This document shows positions 35,570 through 41,062 of a DNA stretch of 64,000 bases, in pieces (position 1 is the first letter of the stretch; each line of letters starts with the position of its first letter). The DNA comes from Agromyces mediolanus (lineage in GTDB: Bacteria; Actinomycetota; Actinomycetes; Actinomycetales; Microbacteriaceae): assembly GCF_023715325.1 (NCBI RefSeq), contig NZ_JAMBNX010000002.1, positions 1-64,000 of the forward strand, written 5' to 3'. The notes below the pieces were generated by a model. That model was not told where the DNA came from and did no database searches. It was given only the letters and a program-made list of their open reading frames with translations. The translations under genes and the position numbers were made by a program.

Positions 35570-36655
35570 ATGGCCATCGTGAGCCTCGCGAACGTCAGCA
35601 AGTCGTACCCGTCGCCCGAGCGGGGCGCGCCCCGCATCGTCGCCGTCGACGACGTCAGTCTCGAGATCGAGGCCGGTGAGGTCACCGGCATCATCGGCTA
35701 CTCGGGCGCGGGCAAGTCCACGCTCGTGCGCCTGATCAACGCGCTCGAACCCGCCACCGCGGGCACCGTCACGATCGACGGGCGGGCGATCACCGGGCTG
35801 CCGGAGCGGGAGCTGCGGGCCGTGCGGCTCGGCATCGGCATGATCTTCCAGCAGTTCAACCTGTTCGAGGCGAAGACCGTGGCGCAGAACGTCGCGTATC
35901 CGCTCAAGGTCGCCGGCTGGGGCAAAACGGAGATCACGGCGCGCGTCGCCGAACTGCTCGACTTCGTCGGGCTCGCCGACAAGGCCCGGGCCTACCCCGA
36001 CCAGCTCTCCGGCGGGCAGAAGCAGCGCGTCGGCATCGCCCGGGCGCTCGCCACCCGCCCGCGGATCCTGCTCGCCGACGAGGCGACGAGCGCGCTCGAC
36101 CCCGAGACGACGCAGGAGGTGCTCGCGCTCCTGAAGCGCGTGAACGAGGAGTACGGCGTCACGATGGTCGTGATCACCCACGAGATGGACGTCATCCAGT
36201 CGATCGCGACCAAGGTCGCCGTGATGGACGGCGGCCGCGTCATCGAGCAGGGCGACGTCTTCGACGTCTTCTCCGACCCGCAGCACGCCTCCTCCCGCAA
36301 GTTCGTCTCGACCGTCGTGCAGGGCGTGCCGTCACCGGCGGAGCTCGCGGTGCTGCGCGAGCGGCACCCGGGGCGGATCGCGACCCTCTCGTTCCGCGAC
36401 GGGGATGCCTCGCAAGCCCGCGTCTTCGTGGAGCTCGCGCAGGCCGGGCTCGAGTTCGAGCTCGTGTACGGCGGCATCAACGACATCCGGGGCCGCGCCT
36501 TCGGGCATCTCACGCTCGCGATCCGCGGCGAGCAGGCCGCGGTCGACGGGGCGCTCGCCCGGATCGGCGAGCTCGTCCAGGTGACCGAGCCGCCCGCGGA
36601 TCCGCCTGCCGGGCCGTCCGCCGGGGACGGCGCCGAGACGGGGGAGACCCGCTGA
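35570..36655 (+). CDS. metN: Methionine import ATP-binding protein MetN
   Basis: 361-residue ATPase. Walker A GYSGAGKST (about 42-50), signature LSGGQKQRVGIARAL, Walker B ILLADEATSALD; a C-terminal NIL domain (about 265-345) matches the methionine-sensing, transport-inhibiting domain of MetN. ATG at 35570 follows GAGGAGG. The 95-nt metQ-metN spacer is compatible with one operon; metN overlaps metI by 1 nt. Confidence 0.94.
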   Translation: MAIVSLANVSKSYPSPERGAPRIVAVDDVSLEIEAGEVTGIIGYSGAGKSTLVRLINALEPATAGTVTIDGRAITGLPERELRAVRLGIGMIFQQFNLFEAKTVAQNVAYPLKVAGWGKTEITARVAELLDFVGLADKARAYPDQLSGGQKQRVGIARALATRPRILLADEATSALDPETTQEVLALLKRVNEEYGVTMVVITHEMDVIQSIATKVAVMDGGRVIEQGDVFDVFSDPQHASSRKFVSTVVQGVPSPAELAVLRERHPGRIATLSFRDGDASQARVFVELAQAGLEFELVYGGINDIRGRAFGHLTLAIRGEQAAVDGALARIGELVQVTEPPADPPAGPSAGDGAETGETR

Positions 36656-37314
36656 TGGACAAGCTCATCGATCTCGGACCCGAGTTCTGGACGGCCGCCG
36701 GCGAGACGCTCTACATGGTGTTCTTCACCATGCTGTTCGGCGGACTCGCCGGCCTCGTGCTCGGCGTCGGACTCTACGTCACCCGGGCCGGCGGCCTGCT
36801 GCCGAACGTCGTCGTGAACAACGTGCTGAACGTGCTGATCAACTTCTTCCGGCCGATCCCGTTCATCATCTTCATCGCCGCGGTGCAGCCGCTCACCCGC
36901 GCCGTCATCGGCATCGGCATCGGCACGAACGCCGCCGTCTTCGCGCTGTCGCTCGCGGCGTCCTTCGCGATCGGGCGCATCGTCGAGCAGAACCTGCTCA
37001 CCGTGAAGCCGGGCGTCATCGAGGCGGCGCGCTCCATGGGCGCCGGGCCCTGGCGCATCCTGACCACGGTCGTGATCGGCGAGGCGCTCGGGCCGCTCAT
37101 CCTCGGCTACACCTTCATCATCGTCGCCGTCATCGACATGTCGGCGATGGCCGGCTTCCTCGGTGGCGGCGGCCTCGGCTACTTCGCGCAGCTCTACGGC
37201 TACCGCCAGTTCGAGCCGATCGTGACCTGGGCCGCAGTGCTGCTCATCATCGTGTTCGTGCAGATCGTGCAGTACCTCGGCAACTGGCTGGCCCGGAAGG
37301 TGCTGCGCCGGTAG
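36655..37314 (+). CDS. metI: Methionine ABC transporter permease MetI
   Basis: 219-residue permease with five helices and the EAA loop IEAARSMGAGPWRILTTVVIGEALGP near 122-147, typical of MetI. The TGATG junction with metN implies coupled translation. The last 15 nt, including the TAG stop, are duplicated exactly downstream (37300-37329). Confidence 0.93.
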   Translation: MDKLIDLGPEFWTAAGETLYMVFFTMLFGGLAGLVLGVGLYVTRAGGLLPNVVVNNVLNVLINFFRPIPFIIFIAAVQPLTRAVIGIGIGTNAAVFALSLAASFAIGRIVEQNLLTVKPGVIEAARSMGAGPWRILTTVVIGEALGPLILGYTFIIVAVIDMSAMAGFLGGGGLGYFAQLYGYRQFEPIVTWAAVLLIIVFVQIVQYLGNWLARKVLRR

Positions 37315-37329
37315 GTGCTGCGCCGGTAG
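37300..37329. repeat. Perfect 15-nt duplication of the metI 3' end
   Basis: GTGCTGCGCCGGTAG occurs twice head to tail: the last five codons of metI including the stop (37312-37314), then an identical copy whose TAG (37327-37329) is in frame. The perfect identity suggests a recent event. Confidence 0.97.
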
Positions 37330-37384
37330 GTGTACTCGATCAGCTGGCCGCACACAGCGCCGCCCGCGCCGGGGCGGGGCGGGC

Positions 37385-37425
37385 GGTCGGGTCCGGTCGG
37401 GTCGGGTCGGGTCCGGTCGGGTCGG
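37385..37425. repeat. GGTCGGGTCC short tandem repeat
   Basis: About eight 5-nt units (GGTCG with GTCCG variants), arranged as two copies of a 20-nt block. It lies between metI and the aztD-flanking palindrome, in the convergent gap 37315-37494. Confidence 0.85.
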
Positions 37426-37434
37426 CACTCACCC

Positions 37435-37468
37435 GAGTTGCCCGACTTCCATGAAAGTCGGGCAACTC
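37435..37468. repeat. 34-nt palindromic repeat, copy 1
   Basis: Arms GAGTTGCCCGACTT and AAGTCGGGCAACTC pair perfectly around a 6-nt centre. Outer flanks (GCACTCACCC / GGGTGAGTGC) extend the stem with a 2-nt bulge. It lies 26 nt past the aztD stop, in the convergent region with metI, so it may also terminate both transcripts. Two further copies lie on the other side of aztD. Confidence 0.93.
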
Positions 37469-37494
37469 GTGGGTGAGTGCCCGGGGCGTCGCGG

Positions 37495-38778
37495 TCAGTG
37501 CGCGGCGGCGACCGTCGAGAGCTCGATCGGCGCGGCTGGCAGCTGCACGCTCTCGACGAGCTCACCGGCGTCGAGGTCCACGAGGTGGATGGTCGAGGCG
37601 GCCGGATCGGTCACGTACACGCGATGCCCGTCGACCCGGAGCGCGGGGCGGGCCTGCTGCCACTCGACGGGCTCCGTCCACGCCTCGATCACCGGGATCG
37701 TCGCGGTGACCGTGCCGGCGGCCGGGTCGATCACGTGGATGGCGCCGTCGGTGCCGAGCATGAGCGCCTCGCCGTGCGGCCCGCGGGCGAGCGAACGGAA
37801 GGTGTAGCTCGTGCCGAGCTCCACGAGCCGCATCGTGCCCGCCTCGGCGTCGACGAGGCTCACGCGGGTGGGGCGCTCGAGCTCCGCCGCGGCATCCGTT
37901 TGGTAGTCGCCGAGCGCGACCGGCGACGCCGGCGAGCCGGCCAGGGTGCCGATGCGTCCGGAGGCGTCGGGGGAGGCGACCTTCGTGAAGGCGCCGTCGC
38001 GGTACACGAGGGCGCCGTCCTGGCAGCCGACCACGATGGTGCCGCCGGCGGCGACGGTCTCGCCGTGCACCCCGGGGCAGCGCTCGTCGCGCACGAGCTC
38101 GGCGCCCGCGGCGTCGAAGACCGCGACGCCCGTGCGCGCCTCCTCGGTGCCGAGGGTCGAGAGCAGCTCGCCGCCGGGCAGCGCGACGGCGACGCCGTGG
38201 TGCGCCGCCGCGCTCGCGTGCCGGCGGACCTCGAGCGCGTCGAGCGCGCCTGCGGGGACCGCGTCGGCGAGAGCGGATGCCTCGAAGCGCTGCACCTCGC
38301 CGGTGCCGTCGGCGAAGAGGGCCGTGACGCCCGCGTTCGTGGTGACGTGGCCCGGGTGGTCGGCCGCGAAGACGAGCTCCGTGAGTCGCGGGGTCTCGCC
38401 GGAGTAGTGCGCGTGGTCGCCGTGCTGCTCGGCCTCGAGGCCGGTGTCGAGCACGCGGAAGCCGACGTCCGTCGAGACCAGCACGTGCCGGCCGTCGCCG
38501 GCGGGGTTCACCCGGAGGAATCCGGGCAGCTCGAGCTCGGCGGCGACCTCGAGCGTGTCGCCCTCGAGCACGAGCAGACCGCCGTCGTAGCTCGCGACGA
38601 GGCGCGGGGCGGCGAGCTCGCGCGCGGCCGGTGCGGGCTCGGCGTCGGGTCGCTCGGCGGGCGCCTGGCCGCCCGGGGAAGCGCAGGCGGCGAGGGCGAG
38701 GAGGAGGGCGGGGGCTGCGGCGGCGCCGGCCAGGCGGATGCCTCGGCGGCGAGGCGGGGGACTGCTGCGTGTGATCAT
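37495..38778 (-). CDS. aztD: AztD-like zinc-chaperone lipoprotein
   Basis: 427-residue predicted lipoprotein: Arg-rich N-tail, hydrophobic segment and lipobox ALAAC with Cys32. The mature part has the repeated strand pattern of a beta-propeller and a His-rich loop HGDHAHYSGETPRLTE, as in AztD, which delivers zinc to the AztC binding protein of the AztABC importer. No aztABC genes are in the window. ATG at 38778 is preferred to upstream starts: TAGCGT (38791-38786) lies 7 nt before it and a Zur/Fur-type box (38800-38812) would otherwise fall inside the coding region. Expression is probably induced by zinc shortage. Confidence 0.8.
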   Translation of the reverse strand: MITRSSPPPRRRGIRLAGAAAAPALLLALAACASPGGQAPAERPDAEPAPAARELAAPRLVASYDGGLLVLEGDTLEVAAELELPGFLRVNPAGDGRHVLVSTDVGFRVLDTGLEAEQHGDHAHYSGETPRLTELVFAADHPGHVTTNAGVTALFADGTGEVQRFEASALADAVPAGALDALEVRRHASAAAHHGVAVALPGGELLSTLGTEEARTGVAVFDAAGAELVRDERCPGVHGETVAAGGTIVVGCQDGALVYRDGAFTKVASPDASGRIGTLAGSPASPVALGDYQTDAAAELERPTRVSLVDAEAGTMRLVELGTSYTFRSLARGPHGEALMLGTDGAIHVIDPAAGTVTATIPVIEAWTEPVEWQQARPALRVDGHRVYVTDPAASTIHLVDLDAGELVESVQLPAAPIELSTVAAAH

Positions 38779-38795
38779 GGCCGCCACGCTATCGT

Positions 38796-38816
38796 TAACG
38801 ATAATCATTCTCAAAA
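38796..38816 (-). promoter_or_regulatory. Zur-type operator of aztD
   Basis: On the minus strand GAGAATGATTATC (38812-38800) is a 6-1-6 Fur-family box with one mismatch between arms, embedded in an AT-rich TTTTGAG...GTTA context. It lies just upstream of the aztD -10 element, so a zinc-loaded repressor would block transcription. Confidence 0.82.
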
Positions 38817-38833
38817 CGCCGCAGTAACCCACC

Positions 38834-38912
38834 GAGTTGCCCGACTTTCATGAAAGTCGGGCAAGTCAGAAACCACCCGAGTTGCCCGACTTTCATGAAA
38901 GTCGGGCAAGTC
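38834..38912. repeat. 34-nt palindromic repeat, copies 2 and 3
   Basis: Two identical 34-nt copies (38834-38867 and 38879-38912), 45 nt apart, with the core GACTTTCATGAAAGTC and arms GAGTTGCCC / GGGCAAGTC. They match copy 1 on the far side of aztD except for one central base and one arm base. They fill the gap between the aztD promoter and the marR stop codon. Confidence 0.95.
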
Positions 38913-38929
38913 GGTGGGGTGGTCGGAGG

Positions 38930-39430
38930 CTAGGCGGGGTCCTCGAAGCTCACGATCAGCTTGCGCAGCAGCCCGGCGAGGCGCTTCTGCTCGGCCGGCG
39001 GCAGGCTGCCGAGGAGCTCCGCCTCGGCGTCGACGAGTCGGGTGATCGCGGCATCCACCCGGGTGAGACCCGCCGGGCTCATCTCGACGAGGATGCCTCG
39101 ACCGTCGTGCGGATCGGTCTGCCGGCTCACGAGGCCGCGGGCGACGAGCCGGTCGATGCGGTTCGTCATCGCGCCACTCGAGACGAGCGTCTGCTGCAGC
39201 AGCGCCTTGGGCGAGAGCCGATACGGCGCGCCCGCGCGGCGGAGCGCGGAGAGCACGTCGAACTCCCACGACTCGAGCTCCGAGCGGGCGAAGGCCTGCT
39301 TGCGCTCCCGGTCGAGGTGCTTCGACAGCCGGGCCACCCGGGAGAGCACCTGCAGCGGCGAGAAGTCGAGATCCGGGCGCTCCCGCTCCCAGTCGGCGAC
39401 GATCCGATCCACCTCGTCCGCGTGCGTCAT
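38930..39430 (-). CDS. MarR family transcriptional regulator
   Basis: 166-residue winged-helix regulator: LEVLSRVARLSKHLDRER-like N-terminal helices, DNA-binding LSPKALLQQTLVSSGAMTNRIDRLVARGLVSR (about 85-116) and wing DPHDGRGILVEMSPAG. ATG at 39430 is 6 nt after GATAAT (39442-39437), predicting a leaderless mRNA. It reads away from the tRNA-Gln/glmU unit; its targets are not evident. Confidence 0.9.
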   Translation of the reverse strand: MTHADEVDRIVADWERERPDLDFSPLQVLSRVARLSKHLDRERKQAFARSELESWEFDVLSALRRAGAPYRLSPKALLQQTLVSSGAMTNRIDRLVARGLVSRQTDPHDGRGILVEMSPAGLTRVDAAITRLVDAEAELLGSLPPAEQKRLAGLLRKLIVSFEDPA

Positions 39431-39543
39431 CCGGCCATTATCGCCCGAGGCGCGGGCGCGCTCATGCCGCAGCGCCACTGGCCGTCATGCGGCGGCGCGC
39501 GCCGTGGCAGACTTGATGGCGCGCACGGCACGCCGCGGCGCGG

Positions 39544-39615
39544 TCCGCCATGGTGTAACGGCAGCACGACAGCCTTTGGAGCTGTGAGGCCCAGGTTCGA
39601 ATCCTGGTGGCGGAG
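39544..39615 (+). tRNA. glnX: tRNA-Gln (anticodon TTG)
   Basis: 72-nt tRNA without encoded CCA. Acceptor TCCGCCA pairs with TGGCGGA plus discriminator G; D arm TGGTGTAACGGCA; anticodon stem ACAGC/GCTGT with loop CTTTGGA giving TTG; T arm CCAGGTTCGAATCCTGG. Only one base separates its 3' end from the glmU start codon. Confidence 0.96.
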
Positions 39616-39616
39616 C

Positions 39617-41062
39617 ATGAGCGATCAGAACCTCGCGATCATCGTCCTCGCGGCAGGACAGGGCACCCGCATGAAGTCGGCGACCCCGAAGCTGCTGCAC
39701 CCGCTCGCGGGCTCGCCGGTCGTCGGGCACGTGCTGAACACCGCGCGGGCGCTCGACGCCGCGCACGTGCTCGCCGTCGTGCGGCACGAGCGCGACCGCG
39801 TCGCCGAGACCATCGAGGCCGAGCTGCCGGGCACCACGATCGTCGACCAGGACGAGATCCCCGGCACCGGTCGCGCGGTCGAGCAGGCCGTCGCCGCACT
39901 GCCCGCCGACTTCGCCGGCGAGGTGCTCGTGCTGAACGGCGACGTGCCGCTGCTCGACGCCGACACGCTCGCCGCGTTCCTCGCGCAGCACCGCGACACC
40001 GGCTCGGCCGCCTCGGTGCTCTCCGCGATCTCCGACGACCCGTACGGCTACGGCCGGATCGTCCGCAGCGAGGCCGGCGCCTTCGACCGCATCGTCGAGC
40101 AGAAGGACGCGAGCGAGGCCGAACGGGCCATCCCCGAGATCAACGCCGGCATCTACGCCTTCGGCGCCGCCGCGCTCCGCGACCAGCTCGCGAACCTCAC
40201 GACCGAGAACGCGCAGGGCGAGAAGTACCTCACCGACGTGATCGAGCTGCTCCGGGAGGCCGGCAGCGAGGTCGAGGCCGTGCCCGTCGCCGAGCCGTGG
40301 CTCGTCGCCGGCATCAACGACCGCGCGCAGCTCTCCGAGACGGCGGCCCGGCTGAACGCGCTCATCGTGCGCGGCTGGCAGCTGAACGGCGTCACGATCG
40401 AGGACCCGGCGACGACCTGGATCGACCTCGCGGTCACGATCGAGCCCGACACGACCATCCGCCCCGGCACCCAGCTGAAGGGGGCGACGACGATCGCCAC
40501 GGGCGCCGTCGTCGGCCCCGACACCACCCTCGTCGACTGCGAGATCGGCGCCGGCGCGCACGTGAAGCGCACCGACGGCACCCTCGCCGTCATCGGCGCG
40601 GGCGCCGAGGTCGGGCCGTTCGCCTACCTCCGCCCCGGCACGGTCCTCGGCGACGACGGCAAGATCGGCACCTTCGTCGAGACGAAGAACGCCGAGATCG
40701 GCCGCGGCAGCAAGGTGCCGCACCTGAGCTACATCGGCGACACCCGGGTCGGCGAGCAGTCGAACGTGGGCGCCGGCTCGATCACCGCGAACTACGACGG
40801 GGTGAACAAGCACCGCACTGAGATCGGCTCGCACGTGCGCACCGGGTCGCACGGGGTGTTCGTCGCGCCCGTTACGATTGGAGACGGCGTCTACACGGGC
40901 GCCGGAACGGTCGTCCGTAAAGACGTCCCGGCCGGAGCGCTCGCCGTGAACGTCGCACCGCAACGCAATATCGAGGGGTGGGTCACCACGCATCGTGCCG
41001 GGACCTCGGCCGCCCAGGCGGCCGAGGCCGCGAGCACGGCCGCCGCGACCGACGCCGACTGA
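39617..41062 (+). CDS. glmU: Bifunctional GlcNAc-1-P uridyltransferase / GlcN-1-P acetyltransferase
   Basis: 481-residue enzyme making UDP-GlcNAc for peptidoglycan. The N-terminal pyrophosphorylase has LAAGQGTRMKS (about 12-22) and GTGRAVEQA; the C-terminal left-handed beta-helix acetyltransferase has TFVETKNAEIG, SYIGDTRVGEQSNVGAGSITANYDG and a long C-terminal Ala-rich tail. The ATG lies 1 nt after tRNA-Gln, so the only Shine-Dalgarno-like sequence (GGCGGAG) is the tRNA acceptor strand itself. It is followed by prs (32 nt). Confidence 0.95.
   Translation: MSDQNLAIIVLAAGQGTRMKSATPKLLHPLAGSPVVGHVLNTARALDAAHVLAVVRHERDRVAETIEAELPGTTIVDQDEIPGTGRAVEQAVAALPADFAGEVLVLNGDVPLLDADTLAAFLAQHRDTGSAASVLSAISDDPYGYGRIVRSEAGAFDRIVEQKDASEAERAIPEINAGIYAFGAAALRDQLANLTTENAQGEKYLTDVIELLREAGSEVEAVPVAEPWLVAGINDRAQLSETAARLNALIVRGWQLNGVTIEDPATTWIDLAVTIEPDTTIRPGTQLKGATTIATGAVVGPDTTLVDCEIGAGAHVKRTDGTLAVIGAGAEVGPFAYLRPGTVLGDDGKIGTFVETKNAEIGRGSKVPHLSYIGDTRVGEQSNVGAGSITANYDGVNKHRTEIGSHVRTGSHGVFVAPVTIGDGVYTGAGTVVRKDVPAGALAVNVAPQRNIEGWVTTHRAGTSAAQAAEAASTAAATDAD

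Follow-up and report, generated by a model that had tools for sequence, protein, structure and literature searches.

We identified a family of about 100 palindromes in Agromyces, each of which combines a 28-nt constant core with locus-specific complementary arms and lies about 20 nt behind stop codons. The three palindromes near aztD in the window (the whole 64,000-nt stretch of DNA that was analysed) are ordinary members of this roughly 100-copy, lineage-specific, REP-like family. The family probably serves as U-less bidirectional 3'-end hairpins, acting as terminators or transcript boundaries. A palindrome transcribed from either side would form a strong RNA hairpin, the hairpin would end or bound the transcript without a U-tract, and a single element could serve both genes of a convergent pair. 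The copy number, the restriction to three related Agromyces among the genomes searched, the placement and the maintained pairing are observed; both this termination role and the copying mechanism considered below are inferred.

The first-pass annotation described three near-identical palindromes, one past the end of aztD and two on its promoter side, and the core matches and gene calls bear out both parts of this description. The 16-mer core matches the window at 37444-37459 with one mismatch and at 38843-38858 and 38888-38903 exactly; shuffled sequence gave 0.01 matches on average, and three were not reached in any of 100 shuffles. The 28-nt constant core, TTGCCCGACTTTCATGAAAGTCGGGCAA, is shared by all three copies apart from a single change in copy 1 (Table 1). 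By the calls of the simple codon-based caller used throughout, copy 1 occupies the gap in which metI (+) and aztD (-) converge; copies 2 and 3 follow the end of marR (-) and precede the start of aztD (-). The best NCBIfam model for the metI-like gene is MetI (148.7 bits, under the cut-off of 212). As RNA, copy 1 folds at -39.1 kcal/mol (z -9.8). Copies 2 and 3 have imperfectly matched outer arms (GAG/GTC), but the region 38825-38918 that includes both folds as one long hairpin at -76.4 kcal/mol (z -14.4) on the minus strand and -76.2 kcal/mol (z -16.4) on the plus strand. If the termination role holds, metI and aztD would share copy 1 at this locus, and the pair at 38837 and 38882 would serve marR, keeping the marR transcript out of aztD. 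A standard terminator scan gave one weak site within the copy 2/3 pair (shuffles, mean 0.4). An Rfam search of 36000-40500 returned one tRNA above the gathering score, together with sub-threshold microRNA and mascRNA matches, of which the microRNA matches fall on the hairpins.

Table 1 Positions of the palindromes, their joint hairpin and the neighbouring genes in the window.
Feature	Position	Strand	Description
Palindrome copy 1	37427..37478	.	core 37438-37465, T-to-C change; arms GAG/CTC plus locus-specific pairing
Palindrome copy 2	38834..38867	.	core 38837-38864; first of a pair spaced 45 nt
Palindrome copy 3	38879..38912	.	core 38882-38909; core end 20 nt from the marR stop codon
Joint hairpin of copies 2 and 3	38828..38918	.	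left arm of copy 2 can pair with right arm of copy 3
metI-like ABC permease gene	36655..37314	+	PF00528; convergent to aztD
aztD, zinc metallochaperone gene	37495..38808	-	NCBIfam NF038015 AztD, 421 bits (cut-off 400)
MarR-family regulator gene	38930..39430	-	PF12802 and PF01047; adjoins aztD upstream, same strand

Two further elements were seen at this locus. An inverted-repeat box, TATCGTTAACGATAATCATTCTCA, is present at 38790-38813 upstream of aztD and also precedes aztD in another Agromyces genome (G025); we take it to resemble a putative Zur/Fur-type site. Given this box, the start of aztD is suggested to be at 38778 rather than 38808. A short GGTCGGGTC-type repeat occupies 37385-37426, between metI and copy 1, and among the three carriers of the palindrome family it is present at that junction only in the window genome.

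A genome-wide count of the motif, which had been proposed as a check, showed that it is a repeat family and not a local feature. The 16-mer core occurs in 109 places of the window genome (G000; 4.04 Mb, 89 contigs) with at most two mismatches and in 94 with at most one. Copies with exact TTGCCCGAC and GTCGGGCAA ends number 74 in the window genome, 81 in A. soli (G030) and 38 in the A. mediolanus comparison genome (G003), and none was present in the other 57 of the 60 Agromyces searched. Outside the genus, none of 23 genomes of the order matched the core at one mismatch. A scan of a contig collection with the exact 28-mer retrieved 63 stretches, all from A. soli and A. mediolanus records, the window genome possibly being outside the scan. 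Among the genomes searched, the family is restricted to these three closely related soil Agromyces.

Clusters contain 55 of the 153 copies examined; in REPINs or BIMEs, paired units alternate in orientation, whereas a perfect palindrome reads alike in both directions. Exact copies are clustered regionally on the A. soli chromosome (NZ_CP094533.1), with 36 of 45 sites at 0.19-1.63 Mb and two beyond 2.6 Mb. The largest gap among these 45 sites, 780 kb, was reached in 0.2% of 5000 uniform simulations; inexact copies fill some of the gaps, among them the largest, which has a match near 3.11 Mb. The loci picked by the exact 28-mer (L051-L113) are biased to unmutated copies. Twenty further stretches, deliberately sited in gaps between known copies and hence no random sample, held no copies, though they include 29 convergent gaps of at least 25 nt. 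Both the regional clustering and these empty stretches count against our preferred explanation. Local copying was not supported significantly by arm types, which were the same in 12 of 25 neighbouring copies (expected fraction 0.39, p 0.16).

The position of the copies relative to genes is the first line of evidence for a 3'-end role. Among 552 intergenic gaps of 25-500 nt in the three species, 58 of 135 convergent gaps have a copy, as do 33 of 254 tandem and 8 of 163 divergent ones (convergent versus divergent, Fisher p = 9e-16), gaps below 25 nt, above 500 nt or with N being excluded; the loci were mostly fetched for holding copies and orthologous gaps were counted per species, which inflates the rates but leaves the difference between the types of gap intact. 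In an earlier tally of 107 copies, 49 were in convergent, 46 in tandem and 5 in divergent positions, 4 at edges and 3 inside called genes, the last three being A. mediolanus copies that adjoin N. The core in convergent gaps is located at a median of 22 nt and 23.5 nt from the two stops; in tandem gaps, it is 21 nt past the upstream stop and 80 nt ahead of the next start.

This placement bears on two earlier suggestions. That the palindromes single out aztD is not supported: copies on both sides were found for only 4 of the 91 genes having at least one copy, aztD being one of the four, and the bracketing looks like coincidence. The first-pass annotation had reserved that verdict for the case of hundreds of random genomic copies; the rarity of bracketing agrees with the verdict, and the genome itself holds about 100 copies, non-randomly placed. 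The proposal that the palindromes are regulator sites fits poorly because few divergent gaps hold a copy. In its more specific form, a binding site for a regulator or nucleoid protein recognising GACTTTCATGAAAGTC, it would explain why 28 nt of palindromic core are constant, beyond the requirement of a hairpin. We consider it improbable, as only 8/163 divergent gaps are occupied, placement tracks stop codons and not starts, and pairing extends outward with locus-specific letters.

A hairpin at the 3' end looks usual at the convergent gaps of the carriers, because copy-free convergent gaps of the same species also have strong ones (median -35.7 kcal/mol, 71 gaps). A quarter of the carriers' copy-free divergent gaps reach -31.4 kcal/mol. 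When the palindromes were masked, 0.25 of 57 convergent gaps reached -25 kcal/mol, compared with 0.65 of 71 copy-free ones; the leftovers are short, and this comparison is not relied on.

The second line of evidence is covariation. Arm types in 69 A. soli copies are GAG/CTC (25), GAC/GTC (23), GGG/CCC (7) and mixed (14). Beyond the core, arm pairing is 0.915 at nt 1-4 (0.723 in partner-swapped controls; 0 of 2000 swaps as high), 0.551 at nt 5-8 (0.392; 0 of 2000) and 0.460 at nt 9-12 (0.407; 10 of 2000), and the 88 singletons show no excess over swapped controls beyond nt 12. These statistics cover 88 of 98 singletons, excluding copies next to N and including orthologues from the three species. 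The excess is also present in 46 separate sites of A. soli alone, not in every column; G-C forms the first arm pair at 28 of these sites and C-G at 15. The longest unbroken pairing outside the core is 21 bp. Within the core, the 153 copies show 11 paired double changes, 39 single changes and no unpaired double change. At one site, both A. soli and A. mediolanus have a GTTCATGAAC version where the window-genome copy has TTTCATGAAA, and at another, A. mediolanus shows the same double change (GTTCATGAAC versus TTTCATGAAA) relative to A. soli. Since the arms remain complementary while differing between loci, and pairing is kept by each of the 11 double changes in the core, the self-complementarity of the hairpin itself is maintained. 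The arm pairing could stem from palindrome-repairing mutation and not from selection.

The core is also constant in sequence. Between the window genome and A. soli, 12 of 504 sites differ in the orthologous cores of 18 single copies, compared with 126 of 565 in the next 16 nt on each side. Between A. soli and A. mediolanus, 11 of 336 sites differ in 12 copies, little less than in the flanks (95.2% identity). A constant core of 28 nt exceeds the need of a hairpin alone; this counts against our preferred explanation, as does the small contrast between core and flanks in A. soli and A. mediolanus. The constancy suggests either sequence-specific recognition or gene conversion among copies.

The palindromes are not classical intrinsic terminators, because the GC-rich hairpin is present and the U-tract is missing: only 3 of 176 stem ends have at least five T in the next 8 nt. 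They resemble the U-less (I-shaped) or bidirectional terminators of GC-rich bacteria in having a strong GC hairpin behind the stops that is common to convergent genes and lacks a U-tract. In Streptomyces clavuligerus, U-less structured and bidirectional 3' ends have been reported, for which the authors leave open I-shaped termination or Rho (PMC8269248). In the available part of that report, such terminators are not described as one repeated sequence, and a terminator activity of the Agromyces family would be the corresponding prediction. The transcription insulator proposed in the first-pass annotation comes close to this putative terminator or 3'-boundary role.

The same features also accommodate a different function, namely that the palindromes are 3'-end stabilisers or processing stops that shield mRNA from exonucleases, with termination occurring elsewhere, for example by Rho. 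We regard this reading, which overlaps the boundary half of our explanation, as possible, if doubtful. The site just behind the stops, the very stable hairpin and the missing U-tract are consistent with it, as is the Term-seq grouping of U-less structured 3' ends in S. clavuligerus as possibly I-shaped or Rho-terminated (PMC8269248). On the other hand, a core about 22 nt from both stops in convergent gaps leaves little room for a separate downstream terminator. Sequence does not tell stabilisation and termination apart.

The family can be compared with known repeated palindromes. The REPs of the GTAG and CGTC super-families, as characterized in the available text of PMC3733652, are likewise short palindromes of about 100 copies that are found between convergent or same-direction genes near stop codons, as singletons and close pairs, with some families in few species. 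In two species diagrammed there, REPs between convergent genes are mostly less than 20 bp from both 3' ends. The Agromyces elements, 20-40 bp extragenic palindromes of high copy number at the 3' ends of convergent and same-direction genes, correspond to this broad description. Unlike GTAG REPs, they lack an unpaired GTAG tag at one end (within 14 nt of the core, it was seen at 0 of 176 ends), and unlike CGTC REPs, they show no enrichment of CGTC (5 of 176 near the core versus 16 of 176 further out). They further differ from REPs in being almost perfect palindromes with locus-variable arms that stay complementary, and no Y1_Tnp/RAYT was found.

This last point was another proposed check. The RAYT-type transposase domain (Pfam Y1_Tnp, PF01797) was found in 0 of 12 Agromyces genomes, all three carriers included, and in 5 of 14 control genomes; two of the carrier assemblies are in 89 and about 10 contigs, so that a gene may have been missed in them, and that of A. 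soli is a single contig. A Pfam scan of 82 of the 88 listed A. soli genes flanking copies (complete, at most 1500 nt) contained no transposase among the 25 families listed of 108. Of the four options in the first-pass annotation, the REP-like one holds in the broad sense of about 100 extragenic palindromes at 3' ends; the RAYT transposase asked about was not found, and the family is REP-like without being a member of the RAYT-REP family. A single IS110-type transposase match was noted in the window genome (G000:C11:286160-286615), not found in the other seven of eight Agromyces searched.

Repeated sequences that make gene-end hairpins are also known from Haemophilus influenzae, where terminators arise from inverted DNA uptake sequences (PMC5217627, PMC2267715). 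That precedent is what speaks for an uptake-type sequence forming terminators when inverted in Agromyces. We consider such an origin next to inconceivable: no half-arm was seen singly, all 243 of 243 exact half-arms lying inside palindromes in 1.5 Mb of carrier loci, many of them chosen for copies. In the accessible parts of the open-licence literature, we found no description of such a palindrome family in Agromyces or Actinobacteria; the sole palindrome mention in the available text of an Agromyces genome paper is the CRISPR abbreviation (PMC5217419). The present family is a clean case of an actinobacterial REP-like family for which neither a RAYT nor a tag was detected; covariation shows that its hairpin is kept, and in relatives, other hairpins occupy some of the same junctions. 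The question of whether REP-like palindromes are selfish, terminators or both is thereby directly testable in the carriers and copy-free relatives.

The history of individual sites was followed by synteny. Of the window-genome sites found in synteny-chosen A. soli stretches, 13 of 15 are occupied, as are 9 of 12 in A. mediolanus, and A. soli sites are occupied in A. mediolanus in 13 of 16 cases (reverse, 5 of 5), where the sites scored as empty include an A. mediolanus case with 117 N, one with an extra gene pair between and an A. soli case at a stretch edge. Occupancy into the copy-enriched window-genome loci is 23 of 23 and 11 of 11. As sites are mostly occupied across carriers, most of the examined copies probably predate the split of the three species. 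In our preferred scheme, the family probably spread before this split and was then mostly kept.

The aztD locus itself is less conserved. Copy 1 is found in the window genome only among the three carriers. The metI/aztD junction of A. soli and A. mediolanus has a GC-rich hairpin and no palindrome copy; the window genome retains a similar GC-rich hairpin there, with the palindrome added after it. Before aztD, A. soli has one palindrome and A. mediolanus none, and both species have two extra genes between marR and aztD, encoding an alpha/beta hydrolase and a WYL-domain regulator (L114:4898-6426, L115:4739-6262), a pair absent from this locus in the window genome and the outgroup loci examined. 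In four copy-free Agromyces (L116, L117, L119, L120), aztD is also located between metI and marR, separated from metI in one of them (L120) by about 1.9 kb without a called gene; in L118, metI adjoins marR and aztD is missing. Thus, aztD is not universal at the metI-marR place, and its presence is independent of the palindromes.

These comparisons speak against another earlier idea, that the palindromes mark the boundaries of an inserted aztD cassette. The copies do flank one gene on both sides, and the absence of aztD in L118 would agree with an insertion. Because aztD sits between metI and marR in copy-free species too, however, the palindromes do not mark a cassette; moreover, neither A. 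soli nor A. mediolanus has copy 1 next to aztD, and just 4/91 copy-bearing genes are bracketed. We give this idea hardly any credence.

Outgroup junctions were available for 10 distinct copy sites, where window and A. soli rows on the same outgroup junction were counted once and two rows with a called gene between the flanks were excluded. At six sites, at least one outgroup has another hairpin of -30 kcal/mol or lower. This replacement is suggestive only, because about a quarter of copy-free divergent gaps reach the -30 mark. The other four sites have no strong hairpin in outgroup junctions, where gaps shrink to as little as 4 nt or the ends overlap; this counts against our preferred explanation. 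Three of the 10 sites have an outgroup gap of 4 or 9 nt or overlapping gene ends, which means either a gain of sequence in the clade or a loss in the outgroup.

A gain in the clade at these three sites would also be expected of a selfish REP-like element that brings no benefit, is copied by an unknown enzyme or template switching, and survives behind genes where it is harmless. REPs have been described with the same placement (in the part of PMC3733652 available), 55/153 copies are in clusters, and exact copies are clustered regionally with none in the 20 gap-sited stretches. Complementary locus-specific arms with paired double changes argue against this view, as does the occupancy of 13/15 window-genome sites in A. 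soli, although quasi-palindrome repair and recent common descent could account for both. We judge a purely selfish element to be unlikely and favour hairpins with a 3'-end role.

Tentatively, the 3' ends of Agromyces genes might be slots that are refilled by successive lineages with different palindromic repeat families: the A. soli group family, an 83-nt GCAGAACTCAGGATGC unit in G028 and a GTCTCGAGACG repeat in G025. Such mobile palindromes may repeatedly replace each other as working U-less bidirectional terminators, their copying perhaps due to an enzyme other than a RAYT or to template switching on a local scale. We hold this broader scheme to be more doubtful than sound, the more so since copy-free gaps commonly reach the -30 mark applied to the outgroup hairpins and since the window genome still has a GC-rich hairpin beside copy 1.

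Some of the outgroup hairpins are repeats in their own right. In G028, an 83-nt unit with inverted GCAGAACTCAGGATGC arms lies at gene ends; seven units are complete, and the arms have 16 matches at no more than one mismatch. One unit is at the metI/aztD junction (L041), and related arms are at another junction (L184). In the 200 kb of G025 that were sampled, the GTCTCGAGACG repeat was present in 4 gaps. Hairpins and intergenic gaps of other Agromyces repeatedly contain GGATGCC/GGCATCC motifs (L190-L199 in G025, L170-L179 in G071). Ten A. mediolanus copies reach N within 10 nt of the core (L054, L071, L077, L093, L098, L101, L102, L109 and L111); the N possibly reflect assembly gaps caused by the hairpins, though some N may be masking. 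In the window genome, a second repeated 12-mer, CTCAGCGAACCA, occurs in 6 of 168 intergenic gaps, three tandem and three convergent (L121-L133 and the window).
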